From NCBI RefSeq assembly GCF_001687335.1, contig NZ_MAGO01000008.1:62001-126000 (forward strand): a stretch of DNA of 64,000 nt. The letters are read 5' to 3'. How positions within the stretch are numbered: position 1 is the stretch's first letter; the number at the start of each line of letters is the position of its first letter. This DNA is from Dissulfuribacter thermophilus. GTDB taxonomy: Bacteria > Desulfobacterota > Dissulfuribacteria > Dissulfuribacterales > Dissulfuribacteraceae. Below the pieces are notes generated by a model. That model did not search any database and was not told the origin of the DNA. It worked only from the letters and a program-made list of their open reading frames with translations. Below, in pieces: positions 13,961-62,087 of the stretch. A program made the translations under genes and the position numbers.

Positions 13961-13984
13961 ATCTCACTCCATAATCTACGATTA

Positions 13985-14090
13985 GTGATTCACGGTGTAG
14001 GAGCACGGTTCACGGCGCCAGGTGCATAATCGGGGGTTTGGAGAGATAACGTACACCGTTTACCGTGTACCGTGGACCGTTTACCGCTCT
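13985..14090. repeat. Short-period ACCGT repeat, inverted across the gap
   Basis: The non-coding gap between lpxI and the oxidoreductase gene holds a degenerate tandem of ACCGT-type units at 14051-14086 (GTACACCGTTTACCGTGTAC and onward) and, at 13991-14016, the same units on the other strand (CACGGTGTAG, CACGGTTCACGG). It could form imperfect hairpins. A TGCATAATCGGGGG string at 14023-14036 resembles the tail of the dispersed element family described elsewhere. Confidence 0.5.
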
Positions 14091-26435: not shown

Positions 26436-26447
26436 CTTAATAAATAG

Positions 26448-26549
26448 CTCGTTGGGGGAGCCCGGGGTAACGGGCTGAGAGGAAGGCTTATCAATCCCGC
26501 CTTCGACTCCTAACACCTGAACTGGGTAATACCAGCGTAGGGAAACGAG
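26448..26549 (+). promoter_or_regulatory. TPP riboswitch (THI element)
   Basis: The stem P1 is CTCGTT (26448-26453) with AACGAG (26544-26549). Between them are the hallmark THI-box strings CGGGCTGAGAGG (26471-26482), CACCTGAACTGGGTAATACC and AGCGTAGGGAAAC. Thiamin pyrophosphate binding would stabilise this fold and favour the terminator that follows, shutting off thiC and the downstream thi4. Confidence 0.97.
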
Positions 26550-26570
26550 TTTTACTAACTAGAAAAAGTA

Positions 26571-26615: not shown

Positions 26616-27914
26616 ATGAACAAAACTTTATTACAAGAGCTTAGACAAGGAATAATTCCAGAATGGCTTAATCAACTAGCAGAAAAGGAAGAAATTTCCC
26701 TCAACAATCTGGTAGATAACATCCTCAAGGGGGAGGCAGTAGTCCTGGGCCACAGAACAAACCGTGGTCCTATGGTAGTTGGCAAGGGGGTCAAAACCAA
26801 AGTCAATGCGAACATTGGAGCAAGTACCCTAACATCCAATCTGGAAACAGAGCTCAGGAAACTCAAAGCAGCACTCAAGGCCAAGGCAGATGCAGTAATG
26901 GACTTGTCCCTTGCAGAAAACATCAAAGAAATCAGGAAAAAGATATTGGCCTCTTCTCCAGTTCCCGTGGGTACTGTACCAATTTATGAGGAAGCTACCC
27001 TAGCCCGGACCAAGCGCGGGGCCACTGTAAGGCTTGATGCCGACGAGTTCTTCACTGTAATCGAAGACCAGATGAAAGACGGAGTTGATTTTGTCACTGT
27101 TCACTGTGGAGTTACCAAAAGGCTTGTGGAAAAGCTCAGTGAAAAACCACGCTTAGCAGGCATTGTCTCAAGAGGTGGTGCCATTACCGCTGCCTATATC
27201 AAACATACTGGAAATGAAAACCCACTTTATGAATACTATGATAGACTCCTTGATATCGCAGAAAAATATGACTGTGTACTCAGCCTCGGCGATGGAATGA
27301 GACCAGGGGCCATAAATGATGCATCGGACTTTTTTGAAGTTGGTGAGCAAGAAATATTGGGCGAACTCCAAAAAAGGGCCTTTGAAAGAGGCGTGATGAC
27401 CATGATTGAAGGGCCTGGTCATGTACCACTTCATCTCGTAGCCGAGTCAGTAAAGAGGATAAAGGCCCTTACAAACAATGCACCTCTTTACCTCTTAGGA
27501 CCATTGGTAACAGATATTGCCCCTGGCTACGACCACATCACATCAGCAATTGGGGCAGCTGTAGCAGGGATGTCTGGAGCAGATTTCATATGTTATGTGA
27601 CCCCTTCCGAGCACCTTGGACTTCCGTCTGAACAAGATGTGTTCGACGGAGTCATTGCTTCAAGAATCGCTGCACATGCAGCAGATATAACCAAGGGCCT
27701 GGAATCTGCCATCAAGTGGGATGAAGAATTGTCTATTGCCAGGAGAGACCTGGATTGGGACAGGCAAATTGCACTTTCTATTGATCCTGAGAAGGCCAGG
27801 CGTATACGAAAAGAAAGGTCTGGTGAAGGTGCCTGCACAATGTGCGGGGAATACTGCGTATTTTTAGTGCTCAAGGACGTAGAAGAGATCAACGCAGATC
27901 TAGTCAAAAAATAA
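26616..27914 (+). CDS. thiC: Phosphomethylpyrimidine synthase ThiC (short form)
   Basis: A 432-residue radical SAM enzyme that rearranges 5-aminoimidazole ribotide into the HMP-phosphate part of thiamin. It has the family blocks MVVGKGVKTKVNANIGAST, VTVHCGVTKRLVEK, LSLGDGMRPGAINDASD, MIEGPGHVPLHL and GPLVTDIAPGYDHITSAIG. The C-terminal cluster site is compact, CTMCGEYC (C-x2-C-x3-C), as in short-form ThiC of anaerobes that lack the long N-terminal domain. It is directly controlled by the TPP riboswitch, with a TGGAGG ribosome site 6 bases before ATG. Confidence 0.97.
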   Translation: MNKTLLQELRQGIIPEWLNQLAEKEEISLNNLVDNILKGEAVVLGHRTNRGPMVVGKGVKTKVNANIGASTLTSNLETELRKLKAALKAKADAVMDLSLAENIKEIRKKILASSPVPVGTVPIYEEATLARTKRGATVRLDADEFFTVIEDQMKDGVDFVTVHCGVTKRLVEKLSEKPRLAGIVSRGGAITAAYIKHTGNENPLYEYYDRLLDIAEKYDCVLSLGDGMRPGAINDASDFFEVGEQEILGELQKRAFERGVMTMIEGPGHVPLHLVAESVKRIKALTNNAPLYLLGPLVTDIAPGYDHITSAIGAAVAGMSGADFICYVTPSEHLGLPSEQDVFDGVIASRIAAHAADITKGLESAIKWDEELSIARRDLDWDRQIALSIDPEKARRIRKERSGEGACTMCGEYCVFLVLKDVEEINADLVKK

Positions 27915-28710: not shown

Positions 28711-28811
28711 ACCCAGATTAGGCAGCTCGAAAGTTTGCCGAAGATGCAAGAAGGCACCCCTTTATAGAGGGGCACTTCCTGTGCTGCAGTGCCTAGGACT
28801 TGCAGCACAGG
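28711..28811 (-). repeat. Copy of the dispersed palindromic element (E4), after thi4
   Basis: Starts on the base after the thi4 stop codon. Read on the minus strand it ends CTTCGGCAAACTTTCGAGCT then GCCTAATCTGGGT, close to the right end of the copy at 57416-57528. It also holds a perfect 11-bp hairpin, CCTGTGCTGCA/TGCAGCACAGG (28778-28811), and a weaker one at 28751-28777 (CCCCT/AGGGG core). The expected left arm is not recognisable, so this copy is partial. The rest of the gap (28812-28956) shows no feature. Confidence 0.6.
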
Positions 28812-33208: not shown

Positions 33209-33320
33209 GGATTGCCAATTTTAGCAAATCCGCTGTGTTGCCAGGGGTGGAAGTGCTGTATAGTAAGTGCTCTACATTTCCCCCACAGCCTTGCAAATTT
33301 GGCAAAGTCCATAATCCGGG
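33209..33320 (+). repeat. Copy of the dispersed palindromic element (E3), before bioD
   Basis: Left arm TTGCCAATTTTAGCAA (33212-33227) pairs imperfectly with TTGCAAATTTGGCAA (33291-33305); the loop holds GGAAGTGCTGTATAGTAAGT; the tail is CCATAATCCGGG (33309-33320). This is a single half-element: I see no mirrored tail on the left. It ends about 40 bases ahead of the bioD start. Confidence 0.6.
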
Positions 33321-47416: not shown

Positions 47417-47957
47417 AAATGATACCAGGCTCCTTTAAGAATTAATTAATCATAAACCTTACAATCTCTAAATACAATAAACCTATTCTAAGTCAAATCT
47501 TTATATAAAGATTTTGCCTTCTTAGCCCAAGATCTCCCAATTTCCACAAAAGGCTAAAACGATCGGTCCTTCTTCTTCTAGTGTCCTGATGTTTTTCGGC
47601 CTCGTTGAAAAAATCATTAGAAAAAAATGATCCCTGGCCTAAGATTAGATGAAGGCCTGTCAAGCACATTTTTTGTGTTCCGACCCTCAATAAGCCTCAA
47701 TTTCACGTTAAATTTCAGCAAAAAACTCATTTCTTGACAGCACGACTAATATTACTTAGGATGCAACAAATCTAAATTCTGCAGTTCTATGCAAGCCAAA
47801 ATACATTTTGAGCTTGCTCAATTTACACTAACAGCTGTGGTATTGAGTCAAGGACACCACATTTTTTAAAATGAAGGGAATATGAGGTCCATACAAGGCC
47901 AATCCCCACAGCTGATTGCAGGATTTAATAGAATCATTTTAAGGAGGCTTAAGAGGG
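47417..47957. other. Divergent intergenic region between crp-like and liv genes
   Basis: 541 bases without a credible gene; a 65-codon frame on the minus strand (47493-47690) has no ribosome site or recognisable protein. 47772-47928 holds an E8 copy of the dispersed palindromic element. TTGAGT (47843-47848) with TTAAAA (47866-47871) at 17 bases is a weak promoter candidate within the element. AAGGAGG at 47941-47947 serves the substrate-binding-protein gene. Confidence 0.4.
47772..47928 (+). repeat. Copy of the dispersed palindromic element (E8), before the liv operon
   Basis: Outer inverted ends are CTAAATTCTGCAGTT (47772-47786) and ATTGCAGGATTTAA (47915-47928). The left half holds GCAAGC..GCTTGC (47791-47817). 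The right half holds CAGCTGTGG (47832-47840) paired with CCACAGCTG (47906-47914), directly followed by the tail, as in the other copies. Confidence 0.5.
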
Positions 47958-49156: not shown

Positions 49157-49242
49157 AACCCCTAATCCTGCAAATCCATTACAATGGAAAATAAATTTGC
49201 TAAACAGCGACGATAAACTTGCCAATTGCAGGATTTAGGTTA
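49155..49242 (+). repeat. Copy of the dispersed palindromic element (E7), before livH
   Basis: Outer inverted ends TTAACCCCTAATCCTGCAA (from 49155) and TTGCAGGATTTAGGTTA (to 49242) match at about 16 of 19 positions. Inside is a small CCAT-taca-ATGG hairpin. The shortest copy found (88 bp). Confidence 0.55.
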
Positions 49243-54533: not shown

Positions 54534-54826
54534 TTTAAACCCAAATTATGCACTGCGAAAGAGGGCAAAAATGAATTTTGTTTTTATATCAAGCAGTTGT
54601 TCTATTGATAGCACTTGCTTTACATTCACCTTTTTGGTGAAACAATTTTCAGTTTTTTTGCCCTCTTTCGTAGCCCTATACACTGTCTGTACAGGGCAGG
54701 CCCTGCGGGATTGGCGATTTTGCCCAATCTGCTTTGTTGCTCAGGGCTCGAAGTACCTAAGTACGTCTTCACCCTTCGCGCCTCGCATCTTGGGCAAACT
54801 CGCCAATTGCATAATTTGGGTTAAAA
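54534..54826. repeat. Full two-half dispersed palindromic element (E5+E2)
   Basis: 293 bp bounded by a 19-bp terminal inverted repeat with one mismatch: TTTAAACCCAAATTATGCA (54534-54552) and TGCATAATTTGGGTTAAAA (54808-54826). The left half has a 19-bp stem, CTGCGAAAGAGGGCAAAAA (54553-54571) with TTTTTGCCCTCTTTCGTAG (54655-54673), and an inner TTCACC/GGTGAA hairpin. The right half has an 18-bp stem, ATTGGCGATTTTGCCCAA (54710-54727) with TTGGGCAAACTCGCCAAT (54790-54807), and an inner AAGTACctaaGTAC hairpin. It overlaps the end of the BioH-like gene and touches the bioC ribosome site. No protein is encoded on its own. Confidence 0.8.
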
Positions 54827-55607
54827 CATCTTTACACAAAAAAGGTAAATGCCCACATCCTTCAACAAACATGTATTTCACCCTAGATGTGACCTTGGGT
54901 ATATCCTCAATGGGTGCAATTCTATCTAGTGTTCCGTGGACCAGTGTAGTCCTTAGGCCCTCAGGGACCGAGATCTCTTCAACGGGATTATTCTCTAGGA
55001 AATCAAGGCCCTCCAAAAGCTCTTTCTTTGTAAAAGATTCTATATAATTCCTCTCAAGCCCATCTTTGAATCTCCTATATAGGGATTCTTGCCCCTTAAA
55101 GCAATCCCTATAAAAAAGCCTCAGCCCAAGCCTTTTATCCCTCTCTACCGCTGCCTTCATATTCCCAATTTCCTTTGAGGGGAAACCCCTTCTAAGGGAG
55201 ATCAACCACAGGCTTTCCAATGAGCACGGTGTCAAAGATGGTGCATGGCCATGAGACCTTAAACCCTGTTGGGCCAGGTGAGCGATCTTCAGTGCCAAAA
55301 TGGCCCCAAGAGACCAACCCATAAGATGAATCTTTTTGCCAGACCTTCTGAGTCCTAAGAGCGTTTCAACATATGCTTCAATGGAAATCTCCCAAGCGCA
55401 CCCCTTTGGATATAGTATTGGTAAGCCCTTTGAACCCAATCCTTGTTGCTCTCCATCATGTAAAACCTCACAATTGTCACCAGATGAAAGAAAAATGGGG
55501 CGAAGGAGATGTGGAGTGCCACAATCACTTGGGGCAAGTTCAAAAATAGAGCCCTTGAATCCCCACCCTGGTATAAAAAAAATGACTGATTTAAAGCACC
55601 TGTTCAC
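54741..55607 (-). CDS. Alpha/beta hydrolase, BioH-like pimeloyl-ACP esterase
   Basis: A 288-residue alpha/beta hydrolase: oxyanion region FFIPGWGFKGS, nucleophile elbow HLMGWSLGAILALKIAHL (Ser about 102), Asp in LVHGTLDRIAPI and His in VEGCGHLPFLCKD. Its place between bioF and bioC argues for the BioH role, releasing pimeloyl-ACP methyl ester; sequence alone cannot exclude another esterase. About 27 C-terminal residues after the catalytic His (from LTQIMQLASLPKM to YFEP) are encoded by the right half of a repeat element, so the original C-terminus was replaced. Confidence 0.8.
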   Translation of the reverse strand: MNRCFKSVIFFIPGWGFKGSIFELAPSDCGTPHLLRPIFLSSGDNCEVLHDGEQQGLGSKGLPILYPKGCAWEISIEAYVETLLGLRRSGKKIHLMGWSLGAILALKIAHLAQQGLRSHGHAPSLTPCSLESLWLISLRRGFPSKEIGNMKAAVERDKRLGLRLFYRDCFKGQESLYRRFKDGLERNYIESFTKKELLEGLDFLENNPVEEISVPEGLRTTLVHGTLDRIAPIEDIPKVTSRVKYMFVEGCGHLPFLCKDVLTQIMQLASLPKMRGAKGEDVLRYFEP

Positions 55608-57209: not shown

Positions 57210-57271
57210 AAAAATGCCTCCCTTTTTCTTTTCATGCTATATGAAAAAGGGAGGGAATGTCAAACTATTAT

Positions 57272-57528
57272 CCCAGATTATGCACTTCAAATGCCTGAGA
57301 AAAAGATTTTTTCTGAATAATTCAATAGTTATCTGCATCTTTTTTTAGTTGGTGCCTTCACCTAAAGGGTGAAGCTTTATCAGTCAGTTAAATCTCAGGC
57401 ATTTGAAGCCGCAAGGAGCTCGCAATTTTACCGAGGTCTCTTTTTTGTCAGGCACTTGAAGTACCAAAGTACTCTCTGCGTGCCCTCCGCCTTGTATCTT
57501 CGGCAAACTTGCGAGCTCCATAATCTGG
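57272..57528. repeat. Full two-half dispersed palindromic element (E6+E1)
   Basis: 257 bp with outer ends CCAGATTATGC (57273-57283) and CCATAATCTGG (57518-57528), inverted. The left half has a perfect 15-bp stem, CTTCAAATGCCTGAG (57285-57299) with CTCAGGCATTTGAAG (57394-57408), and an inner CTTCACC/GGTGAAG hairpin. The right half has GAGCTCGCAATTTTACCGAG (57416-57435) pairing with CTCGGCAAACTTGCGAGCTC-like bases at 57498-57518, and an inner GAAGTACcaaAGTAC hairpin. It ends 2 bases from the gltB stop codon. Confidence 0.75.
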
Positions 57529-57530
57529 TA

Positions 57531-60500
57531 TTATCCAGCACTATGAGGTCTCATGGCCTTTGGAACTATCATTACGAATCTCGACATGGCGTCATCGAGG
57601 AGTTCCTGTACCTTTTCAGCCTCATCTTCCTGGAAGTTCTTTTTCAGTTCCTCTATATAAATTCCCAAGAGCTCCTCAATGTCTTTGAGGCCTTCCTCAG
57701 TCAATTTATTGATGAAGACATTGGCGCCCTTTGCCAGCCTTCTTTCAATTGACTTCTTGGTAAAGTTGTATTCAGGATACAGGCACTGATAAATCACTCC
57801 GCCTGTCATACCAGCACACATCCATGGGCCAGGGTCTCCGAGCACAACTGCACGTCCACCTGTCATATATTCAAAGGCAAAGCCCTTTAGATGGGCATGG
57901 GTTGCAATATTGCCCTTCGTATCGTCTACAGGCCTCGTAATCCTTCCACCGAATATTACATCAGCCCCAGACATCCTCACACATGCCCTGGAGTCTGAAT
58001 AGTTCTGCACAATCAATGTGCCTTTAATGGCACCATAGGCAAAACTCTTTCCAGTGGAACCATCTACCCTTTGCCCAAGGATATTTCTCCCTTTTAATAC
58101 GCAAAGAAGTCCTCCGAAGCTACCCTTGGAGGCCCCATCCTGAGCACCACCATTGATTACGGCTTTTATGTTCTCAATATTAAAGGCACAAAGACCGTTT
58201 CCTGGAACAGATGTATTCAGCCTCAAGAAGGCGTGTTTGTCAGATTCAAGGCCGTATTCTCGCACAATAGCGCCTGCCAGATAGGTCCCAACTGCCCTAT
58301 CAGTACTGCAGACCCCTTCATCAGAGTAAAACACCTGTTTTTCACCTGCCTTAAAGCGTTCCATGGCAATATCTGAAATGAGGCGAGTGAGGTAGTTTAA
58401 TGGTCTCCTTACGAGCTTTGTTCCCTCTGGGTCTTCCTTCAGACCTTCAAAGGCAGGTTTTTTCAGTACTCCTGAGGCATCCACATATGATTCGAACCTG
58501 TATTGTTCAAGGAGTTCTGTATGGCCAACGATGTCACGGATGGACCTTACGCCCATATCTGCCAGGATGGATTTGACTCCTTCCCCAATGGCAGTCAACA
58601 GGCGGGCAAGGTTTTCTGCCTCATCCTCCACCTTTCTCGGTGCAAATCCCTTTACACCTCTTTGCTCAGCATCCTCTTTAGATCTCAACTGAGTGGAGAT
58701 ACCCCTTGGGCAGCGGTCCAGGTGACACCTGTGGCAACTTATACATCCAACGCCCATCAGAGCCACAGTACCCATGGAGACCCTATCTGCCCCCATTATG
58801 ATCATCTTCACCACATCCATGGGGCTTCTCAGACCGCCATCTACCCAGATCTCCACTGCGTCTCTTAGGCCGGCCTCTACAAGGGACCTGTGGGCCTCAT
58901 TTACCCCGACCTCAATGGGCATTCCCACATATTTTTTGGCGTGTTCCCTTGCAGCACCAGTACCACCTTCAAAACCAGACAGATCCACAATATCTGCCCC
59001 GGCCTTTGCAATACCAACTGCAATGGTACCCACGCCTGTTGTTACTGGGATCTTTACAGAGACCTTTGCATTGGGATTTGCTGTCTTGAGCTCAGTAATG
59101 ATCTGTGCAAGGTCTTCAATGGAGTAAATATCATGCTGATTTGACGGCGAAATAAGCGTAATCCCAGGTTTACAGTGTCTGGCCTTTGCCACCATTGGCG
59201 ACACCTTTGTCCCAGGGAGGTGTCCGCCTTCCCCTGGCTTTGCTCCCTGACCAATCTTGATCTCCAGGTAATCAGTGGAGTTGAGTAACCCCATATATAC
59301 GCCAAAACGTCCAGAGGCGATCTGCTGACAGCGGTTTTTCCTGTATTTACCCAGCATATCTGGGATTTCGCCGCCTTCTCCGTTTATACATATGATATTG
59401 GCCCTAAGAGCTGCCTCGGCATATGACCTGAAGGAATTCTCACCCTGAGAACCAAAACTCATTGCAGCTATAACGAGAGGCATTGAATGATCGCCAATAG
59501 AGATATCCACATCTTTTAGGCTGAGTCGTTTTTCTTCTGGAGCAAGGCGCGGCCTGAGAACATGCCTTATACCCACAGGATGCTCTTCTTCTATCTTGCC
59601 GAGTTCTTCCAAAAGGTCTTTGAATCCCCTCTTTCCAACTGCGACATTCCTCAGAATTCGTCCGACCTTTGAATTCCTGTTGGGCTCTTTATAGAGTGGT
59701 TGTTCTTCTTCCTGATGGAAACGCTCATAACGCTTCGCTGCAATCTCTTTTAGGGTATCGAATCCAACGCCACTTTTTTCAGATTCGCAGAAGTTTGGCA
59801 CCTGGAAAATCTCTCGAAGCTCCTTCTTAAGGCCAATGGAACCAAAGATTCGGCCATAGCCGCAGAGTTCATGGATACCCATGGTGCTCATGACCTTTTC
59901 GATACCCTTTTGGAACACATCCATGGTGTTCCTTATTGTGGTTTCAGAATCAGTTTGGTCATTGGCAAGGCCAGCCACTACCCTCCACAACATGTATGGG
60001 TTCAGGGCATCTGCACCCAACCCCAGCAAGAACATGATGTCATGGAGATTCCGGATGGCGCCTGAGCGTACGACAATACTCGTGTTTCGCTTGAGTTCTG
60101 ATTCTTCAAACCTCTTAATGAGTCCTGCCACCATAAGGCCAGGATCAATATAAGAACGGTTGTCTTTGAATGCGTTTTTATCATCCACTATAAGGAGTAC
60201 TGCGCCTTGGCGTACCTTGTCTTCTGCCTCGTCTAAGCGTGCGTTCAAAGTTGACGCAAGGTCATCGTCAAGGTCAAATGTCGCATCTATCACGTGGACC
60301 CTTGATGAATCCAGCTCTCCACCAGTGAAAAACTCCACCACATCTTCAAAAAGGGCGGTTCCAAACTCTTCTGCAATCTTTCTCTGAGAGGCTATGTCGC
60401 AATTTATGCGGTCATCTCCACCGAGAAGAAGCGGATTCTTCAGTTCAAGGCCAATGGCAGGAGGAGTGGCAGTACCGTTTTTGTCTGGCCTGCTTCCAAG

Positions 60501-62087
60501 TATGCACCTTGTGGTAAAGTGCTCTGCCTCTCTTTCCCTGTCGATGGCAGGGTTGGTAACCACTGCCACATTTTCCTTGAAGTACTCTGAACAATTGGGC
60601 AGGGACTCTGGCACAAGTACTGGGTATGTCTCCTGATGCCCCATGGAGCCGATTATGTCCCTTCCCTCTAGGGCGACCCTCTTTCTAAGGTCCATGTCAA
60701 AGTGGTGCCATCCAAAGGCGGCAAGCTCATTGTTCCGTGGCAGAGATTGGTCGGCAGTACCAGAAGAGCTTGTGTCTGCAGAGGTCTCTTTAGCGCTGCT
60801 TGCGCTCTTCGGGCTCCCAGAGTGGAAAAATTTAATGACTTCTCTAAGCCCTTGTTTGCTCTTAAAGAGTTTGAGGAGTCGTTCTTGGATCGCAGGATAA
60901 TCCAACACCTCGGCCCTCTGCCCTGGAGTGGACAAGATGGCAATCTTTTCACCAGGGGCTAGTGGCCTGGGGTCATTCAAGGTATGACTAATATTTACAA
61001 CTCCCTTCTCAGAAGAGAGGACATAGTCATAATCACTCTCTATGAACCAGAGGGGTCTTAAGCCAAGGGCATCAACGCTGCCCATGCAAACATTTCCAAA
61101 TCTAGCGACAACTGCGGCAGGTCCCTGAGCCGAACATGGGAAAAACCACCTGAGGAACTTATAGACATCCTGGAGATCTTCTGGATATTGCTCAACTTCT
61201 GAGTGAATCGCCGGAAAGACCATTTCCAGGGCCTCGAGTGGGTCAAAATCATACATATTGATCAAGCCCTCTATGATCCTGTTCAAGTCTTGGGAATCAC
61301 TTCCGCCGGGCACTGGCTCAATGCCCATGGTCTTTCCTGTACTGCGGAGACGCTCAATAGTGTTGATTTCTCCGTTATGTCCAAGCACAGAAAATGGCTG
61401 GGCACGTTCCACAGTAGGAAGTGTATTGGTGGAATAACGGCTGTGGCCCAATGCGATCATGGACTTGTTGTCTTCGTCTAAGATTTCCGGATAAACACGA
61501 GGAAGGAGCTGTGGCATGCCCCTTAACTTATACACAACAGAATCCGTGCTCAGGGAAGCAATGTGTAAGTCAGGAAGCTCTCTTTCAATTGCCATGTGCA
61601 ACTTGAAGAGGCTTTTCTGACATGCCCTGTGATCCAACTCATTGGGCAACAGGCCTGCAACCTGGAAGAAGATCGGGGCCTCTTCCCTTGCCCTCGGCCC
61701 AAGTTCTTCAAGCTTTTGCTCACCTATTCTGGCAATTAAGACCTCAGCGCCACTTTCCTTTATAACGGATTCGATCTTTGACCTTATGGTCTCCTCATCC
61801 TTCTTCATTCCATGGGTTATCAAAAAGTGGCCAACGAAAAAGTTGGGACTATAGGCAACGTGAGAGCTAATGCCCTTTTCTTCCAGACGCTTAGCCCAGA
61901 TGACTCTTGGGATGTCTGTCAATATACCGCAACCATCCCCTTCGCCATTGATGTCTCCGGACCTGTGTCCCATCTTTTTCAATGCATCGATAGTCTTGAC
62001 AATGTTGGCATGGGTGGACCTACCTCTTTTGTCCACAATAGCCACTATAGCGCATGCATCCCGTTCCCTTTGGAATCTTCTATCCAT
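57531..62087 (-). CDS. gltB: Glutamate synthase large chain
   Basis: A 1518-residue enzyme, normal GltB length. It opens DACAIVAIVDKRGR, where Cys12 becomes the N-terminal nucleophile of the glutaminase domain after loss of 11 residues. The glutaminase spans to about 430 and is followed by a low-complexity Ser/Ala/Thr linker, central domain, FMN synthase domain (about 800-1180: GQGAKPGEGGHLPGTKV, GGLRSPMDVVKMIIMGAD) and the C-terminal GxGxG helix (GGRAVVLGDPGPWMCAGMTGG). The [3Fe-4S] Cys group is GCISCHRCHLDRCPRG. No GltD NAD(P)H subunit is nearby, so the electron donor may be ferredoxin. The gene stands alone. Confidence 0.93.
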   Translation of the reverse strand: MDRRFQRERDACAIVAIVDKRGRSTHANIVKTIDALKKMGHRSGDINGEGDGCGILTDIPRVIWAKRLEEKGISSHVAYSPNFFVGHFLITHGMKKDEETIRSKIESVIKESGAEVLIARIGEQKLEELGPRAREEAPIFFQVAGLLPNELDHRACQKSLFKLHMAIERELPDLHIASLSTDSVVYKLRGMPQLLPRVYPEILDEDNKSMIALGHSRYSTNTLPTVERAQPFSVLGHNGEINTIERLRSTGKTMGIEPVPGGSDSQDLNRIIEGLINMYDFDPLEALEMVFPAIHSEVEQYPEDLQDVYKFLRWFFPCSAQGPAAVVARFGNVCMGSVDALGLRPLWFIESDYDYVLSSEKGVVNISHTLNDPRPLAPGEKIAILSTPGQRAEVLDYPAIQERLLKLFKSKQGLREVIKFFHSGSPKSASSAKETSADTSSSGTADQSLPRNNELAAFGWHHFDMDLRKRVALEGRDIIGSMGHQETYPVLVPESLPNCSEYFKENVAVVTNPAIDREREAEHFTTRCILGSRPDKNGTATPPAIGLELKNPLLLGGDDRINCDIASQRKIAEEFGTALFEDVVEFFTGGELDSSRVHVIDATFDLDDDLASTLNARLDEAEDKVRQGAVLLIVDDKNAFKDNRSYIDPGLMVAGLIKRFEESELKRNTSIVVRSGAIRNLHDIMFLLGLGADALNPYMLWRVVAGLANDQTDSETTIRNTMDVFQKGIEKVMSTMGIHELCGYGRIFGSIGLKKELREIFQVPNFCESEKSGVGFDTLKEIAAKRYERFHQEEEQPLYKEPNRNSKVGRILRNVAVGKRGFKDLLEELGKIEEEHPVGIRHVLRPRLAPEEKRLSLKDVDISIGDHSMPLVIAAMSFGSQGENSFRSYAEAALRANIICINGEGGEIPDMLGKYRKNRCQQIASGRFGVYMGLLNSTDYLEIKIGQGAKPGEGGHLPGTKVSPMVAKARHCKPGITLISPSNQHDIYSIEDLAQIITELKTANPNAKVSVKIPVTTGVGTIAVGIAKAGADIVDLSGFEGGTGAAREHAKKYVGMPIEVGVNEAHRSLVEAGLRDAVEIWVDGGLRSPMDVVKMIIMGADRVSMGTVALMGVGCISCHRCHLDRCPRGISTQLRSKEDAEQRGVKGFAPRKVEDEAENLARLLTAIGEGVKSILADMGVRSIRDIVGHTELLEQYRFESYVDASGVLKKPAFEGLKEDPEGTKLVRRPLNYLTRLISDIAMERFKAGEKQVFYSDEGVCSTDRAVGTYLAGAIVREYGLESDKHAFLRLNTSVPGNGLCAFNIENIKAVINGGAQDGASKGSFGGLLCVLKGRNILGQRVDGSTGKSFAYGAIKGTLIVQNYSDSRACVRMSGADVIFGGRITRPVDDTKGNIATHAHLKGFAFEYMTGGRAVVLGDPGPWMCAGMTGGVIYQCLYPEYNFTKKSIERRLAKGANVFINKLTEEGLKDIEELLGIYIEELKKNFQEDEAEKVQELLDDAMSRFVMIVPKAMRPHSAG

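Follow-up and report, generated by a model that had tools for sequence, protein, structure and literature searches.

A family of mobile non-coding elements of about 255 bp with a conserved four-part fold in Dissulfuribacter thermophilus

The two-half palindrome near position 54,534 of the window (the whole stretch of 64,000 nucleotides of Dissulfuribacter thermophilus DNA that was analysed) raises the question of why a non-coding repeat should remain self-complementary while its sequence changes, ie whether it is a fold under selection, a transposon, or both. An earlier note on this DNA had listed six copies of one family in the window. Two of these sites proved to be full-length copies, and the family also accounts for one half element, one end fragment and one deletion derivative (Table 1). 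The sixth site, 47772-47928, could not be confirmed as a copy: neither blast nor the covariance model showed any similarity to the family, and its 5-bp flanks do not match.

Table 1. Positions of family members, their parts and one unassigned candidate within the 64-kb window (TIR, terminal inverted repeat).
Feature	Position	Strand	Remarks
Left target-site duplication TTAAA	54535-54539		Flank of the 54540-54820 copy
Full-length subfamily A element	54540-54820	+	281 bp (254 bp without the 27-bp insert)
Left TIR CCCAAATTATGCA	54540-54552	+	Subfamily A copy
Hairpin I	54553-54673	+	Subfamily A copy; stem CTGCGAAAGAGGGCAAAAA / TTTTTGCCCTCTTTCGTAG
27-bp palindromic insert	54674-54700	+	Subfamily A copy; known from two copies only, at differing positions
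Mini-hairpin CCCTGCGGG	54701-54709	+	CCC..GGG or CC..GG in the majority of copies
Hairpin II	54710-54807	+	Subfamily A copy; helices split by conserved internal loops
Right TIR TGCATAATTTGGG	54808-54820	+	Subfamily A copy
Right target-site duplication TTAAA	54821-54825		Flank of the 54540-54820 copy
Left target-site duplication ATTAT	57267-57271		Flank of the 57272-57529 copy
Full-length subfamily B element	57272-57529	+	TIRs 57272-57284 and 57517-57529
Hairpins of the subfamily B copy	Hairpin I 57285-57408, hairpin II 57417-57516	+	
Right target-site duplication ATTAT	57530-57534		Includes the glutamate synthase stop codon
Half element, hairpin II and right TIR-like end only	33210-33320	+	Covariance-model match E = 3e-5; left half absent
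Subfamily B end fragment (hairpin II end with TIR)	28712-28757	-	blast E = 9e-11; immediately past a gene stop codon
80-bp deletion derivative, both C-type ends	49160-49239	+	Inside a branched-chain amino acid transport operon, between two genes
Candidate with TIR-like ends	47772-47928		Family membership not established

The genes on either side of the 54534 copy encode a methyltransferase and, on the minus strand, an alpha/beta-hydrolase. The final 28 or so codons of the alpha/beta-hydrolase frame (window 54741-55607, strand -) are supplied by the inserted element, and the Pfam match of this frame stops at residue 257 of 288. A glutamate synthase gene (57531-62087, minus strand) has its stop codon where the 57272 copy is inserted. 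The palindrome CCCTRTACASTGTCTGTACAGGGCAGG, which forms the insert in the first of these copies, is also present at G000:C12:23029-23055 (L253), again within a subfamily A copy; no further site in the genome matched it when up to 3 mismatches were allowed. Two other features of the window were observed. TIR-like ends (CCATAATCTACGAT and GCATAATCGGGGGT) lie at 13969-14037, near a short-repeat region (ACCGTGTACCGTGGACCG), and are not tied to the family. A TPP riboswitch (Rfam RF00059, 74 bits) occupies 26444-26560 on the + strand, upstream of a 432-aa frame at 26616-27914.

The size of the family was determined over the genome. The 54534 copy, which is the best copy, gave 48 blast matches genome-wide, and a covariance-model search, the check suggested by the earlier note, brought to light further copies, with 78 matches in this genome and a best E of 1.6e-27. 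The catalogue of copies covers 1.22 Mb out of a genome of 2.52 Mb. This portion contained 65 TIR pairs, and perfect 5-bp flanking repeats were present in 39 of the 61 pairs with no more than one end mismatch. It also contained 42 full-length copies with a modal length of 255 bp and no protein-coding capacity. Most full-length copies have 13-bp TIRs plus a 5-bp target duplication, so the MITE-like architecture noticed earlier was borne out. The full-length copies form three subfamilies, A (n = 7), B (n = 17) and C (n = 18); A and B terminate in CCCRRATTATGCA, C terminates in CCTAAATCCTGCA, and the arms of hairpin II are common to A and C. The C-type end has 63 exact occurrences in the whole genome and its reversed control has 0, and a loose TIR pattern occurred 282 + 265 times, compared to 117 + 141 times in its reversed control.

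Short derivatives of 61-147 bp are present as well, several with perfect duplications. Those of 61-99 bp which have lost both hairpins, several of them again with perfect 5-bp duplications (for example G000:C1:46440-46513, C3:89735-89808 and C1:251935-252019), may have moved in that form or have shrunk once inserted. One full-length copy, G000:C3:52776-53028 (L115:12776-13028), has one mixed end, one C-type end and no target duplication, which is the expectation if mixed ends come from recombination and not from transposition. A plasmid search with the A-type half gave no match. In Rfam 15 no match reached the gathering score within the elements, and the matches outside them were at chance level (E up to 5). 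The absence of a curated covariance-model match in the elements rules out a known Rfam RNA, and agrees with the earlier failure to recognise the family.

Movement of the family is evident at the level of its insertion sites. Copies in relatives carry the same 5-bp target duplications as the copies of this genome, and one relative (G019) has near-identical 256-bp copies (median identity 0.99) at separate sites, with site-specific duplications that include TTTAA, TTCAA, TTTAT, TTAAA, ATGAT and ATTAT. Because 5-bp duplications flank tens of sites, and because near-identical copies occupy different sites of a single relative, the family is almost certainly a non-autonomous transposon (MITE) of about 255 bp. 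An empty insertion site was sought in the relatives and no matching locus was found; a G019 copy lies near frames which by eye resemble AbiEii and Cas1, with no clean interrupted gene. Of the A/B insertions, 49 of 50 have the target NTNAN; of the C insertions, which mostly fit TNNNA, 2 of 21 do (Fisher p = 5e-14). We infer with good support that the A/B and C types of TIR answer to two transposases with differing target preferences. As A and C share the arms of hairpin II, yet their targets follow the type of end, related bodies have apparently been moved by two transposases.

Candidates for the helper were found in the relatives. IS1380-family transposase genes are present in 8 of 31 genomes (30 relatives plus this genome), and this genome itself gave no match to the IS1380 transposase (PF13701). 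At seven loci (L062, L064, L066, L067, L068, L069 and L072) exact CCCRRATTATGCA-type ends lie beside the transposase gene. At L067 such ends are found on both sides, 1672 bp apart, enclosing a broken transposase gene. The protein of L062 scores 195.9 bits with the curated IS1380 model NF033539, above the cut-off of 180. IS1247, a member of the IS1380 family, has a length of 1672 bp, IR of 16/13 and DR of 5 (PMC3281130), and ISEcp1, of the same family, gives 5-bp target duplications (PMC2887853). Since identical ends are found on IS1380 loci in the order, and published members of the family make 5-bp duplications, a transposase of IS1380 type probably serves as the trans-acting helper for the A/B type, by way of TIR recognition. 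The IS1380 element in G400 ends in CCTGAATTTTGCA, a sequence also seen at one of the two ends of MITE copies from G147. Distant carriers of the MITE mostly lack an IS1380 transposase (none in five of these genomes), and a search for a transposase with C-type ends found none.

In the consensus fold of the subfamilies, a TIR stem bears hairpins I and II and, between these two, a CCC..GGG mini-hairpin that is shorter in B; the consensus folding energy is about -108 to -121 kcal/mol on both strands using RNA parameters. Folded as single-stranded DNA, the 54540 copy was 11.3 and the 57272 copy 8.9 standard deviations below shuffles. Whole arms differ among the subfamilies with complementarity kept. 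The earlier note had described this for the stem arms of the window, and it extends far beyond this genome; changes on both sides were observed in 31 of 62 predicted pairs for the copies within this genome, and in 42 of 59 pairs in A3, an alignment of 45 diverse copies used for the pairing and covariation statistics. Pairing held in 93.1% of the cells of A3, and in 77.3% when the alignment was shuffled. For covariation, the score was 0.434 compared to 0.156 in shuffles, with 0 of 500 shuffles reaching the observed value, a margin which is still large for controls that somewhat favour the structure, it having been derived from the same sequences as were tested, and for related copies that are not independent of one another. 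Sliding the partner columns lowered the score to 0.055-0.106. Part of the covariation is contributed by the TIR stem, and any inverted-repeat transposon would show that; covariation of the hairpin helices would not be expected on those grounds. With covariation this strong, base pairing outlasts sequence in the family. The internal loops of hairpin II match its helices in conservation, with invariant letters at, for example, A3 columns 215, 240, 241 and 255. The interior of hairpin I is weakly conserved (mean majority fraction 0.57) and the total length still remains near 255.

The distribution of the element was followed with R1, a covariance model of hairpin II. Within the order, 31 of 46 genomes had matches, one of them as many as 82, and copy number among related genomes ranges from 0 to more than 70. 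In the phylum, 24 of 395 sampled genomes had matches, and 15 of these 24 lie outside the class. Copies from distant families measure 255-266 bp and retain the four-part fold with different end and arm letters, and most have matching or near-matching 5-bp flanks; loci in parts of G147, G175, G365, G126 and G113, where a simple end search gave no clean element, were left out. The four-part body, in its helices and total length, is conserved across the phylum while the letters change. A search for a description of such an element in this phylum found none in the collection of papers that was searched.

Single copies behave differently from the lineage. In subfamily B there are 19 private stem mutations, of which 0 are compensated. 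In subfamily C, 39 private stem changes lack a compensated partner and 13 have one; these 13 probably come from divergent copies. Because the fold is kept between lineages while single copies mostly lose pairing uncompensated, selection most plausibly falls on the mobile copies, and the fold is probably selected in the mobile element lineage and not in each host copy. The earlier view, of a selected fold and not a decaying transposon, was therefore half right: pairing outlives sequence, but the element transposes and its single copies decay.

The explanation which we favour overall, at a probability of about 0.6, is a MITE family with a helper of IS1380 type and a fold that is selected while the lineage is mobile. 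Transposases of this type would act in trans on the copies by recognising the TIRs. A single-stranded or extruded copy would fold, with both ends pairing into one stem, and on this stem would stand a compact junction of constant size, an arrangement that would favour mobilisation. Once inserted, most copies would be dead and would decay. Because the length stays near 255 despite the poorly conserved interior of hairpin I, a constraint on length at the DNA level is suggested, and a role of the DNA in mobilisation is offered tentatively, at slightly under even odds, as the main reason for the fold. A bolder version, which we consider doubtful, is that of a phylum-wide, transposase-free lineage whose identity would lie in a conserved fold and fixed length and not in its sequence, which would swap TIRs, and thus helper and target, and whose fold would be recognised by a factor of the cell or the transposase.

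The fold might instead act in RNA. The element would then fold closed within transcripts reading through an operon and protect or separate the neighbouring genes, so that insertions with an intact fold would be less harmful and would spread. The positions of the copies suit such a role, as they are almost exclusively intergenic, often lie in co-directional gene runs, and in 13 of 41 full-length cases have the stop codon of a gene at the duplication. With simple open reading frames as gene calls, copies between co-directional genes follow the gene direction by 26:8 (p = 0.003) here and by 15:6 in relatives; an earlier count of full-length copies only was 18:8 (p = 0.08). No replication-strand bias is evident, and the orientation along genes hints at an effect in transcripts. 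The equal conservation of internal loops and helices in hairpin II points the same way, and published MITEs are transcribed and able to alter mRNA stability (PMC3733652). However, among private mismatches the G-T and A-C types occur in similar numbers (102 compared to 113, p = 0.50). This shows no bias of the kind that a strand-specific RNA fold would leave and suits a role of the DNA, but the balance mostly reflects decaying copies and says little on active ones. Copies also mostly go unrepaired after insertion, and a function in RNA has no need of a near-constant length combined with a free hairpin I interior. The two full copies examined had no intrinsic terminator-like site, and their promoter-like sites were no more frequent than the shuffle level, which speaks against an intrinsic terminator or promoter function. 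A role in RNA is possible, but on this evidence we think it unlikely.

Pairing could also be kept by mutation, if template switching between hairpin arms (palindrome correction) changed the two arms together. Such a process would account for whole arms that differ among subfamilies yet remain complementary, and for the symmetry of mismatch types. It should erase mismatches too, whereas hairpin II keeps fixed internal loops with invariant letters and none of the private stem mutations of subfamily B has been corrected, which makes it improbable as the source of the pairing. Domestication, with every copy serving its host as a regulatory RNA or DNA site and being maintained individually, is very improbable; the intergenic positions, high fold stability and orientation bias would fit, but the stems of subfamily B are decayed by private mutations, related genomes differ in copy number from none to dozens, and deletion derivatives minus both hairpins are common. 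The last alternative, unrelated chance hairpins, has nothing in its favour beyond the weak candidate at 47772-47928 and next to no probability. It is ruled out by the blast and covariance-model matches, the presence of the family in two-thirds of the genomes of the order, and the target duplications.

The MITE family with an IS1380-type helper was compared with known systems. Like IS1380 insertion sequences (IS1247, ISEcp1), it makes 5-bp duplications, and IS1380-type elements of the order carry the identical 13-bp end. Those elements encode a transposase, which the MITE does not, and so far as tested its body did not arise from an IS1380 by deletion, the blast matches being short and at the level of the ends only. 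ERIC, NEMIS/Correia, RUP, Nezha and YPAL mostly fold as a single long hairpin and have a more restricted host range, whereas the element here has two hairpins on a TIR stem, a near-constant length and a phylum-wide range. They are likewise small non-coding MITEs with stable folds that adjoin genes (PMC3733652). REP/REPIN sequences with RAYT transposases resemble it as dispersed palindromic repeats mobilised in trans. REPs are described as 20-40 bp long and tagged with GTAG or CGTC (PMC3733652), a description that does not fit the element here, whose body measures 255 bp and which has TIRs of 13 bp and a 5-bp duplication. Judged by the part of its published description used here, the closest published element is Chunjie, a 235-bp non-coding MITE of Geobacter uraniireducens which likewise has TIRs, direct repeats and dozens of mostly intergenic copies, one of them in an operon (PMC10969869). 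In that part of the description, to which the comparison is confined, neither a conserved multi-helix covarying fold nor two TIR types are mentioned (PMC10969869).

MITEs are usually seen as the debris of insertion sequences, retained through their ends alone. In this family, the fold of several helices and the near-constant length of a non-coding body persist phylum-wide through the turnover of its letters, and related bodies carry two types of end that differ in target preference. The family is also a caution that covariation in repeated intergenic sequence does not prove a host RNA. It allows a direct test of whether nucleic-acid folding is a selected trait of mobile elements, and of whether helpers can be swapped.
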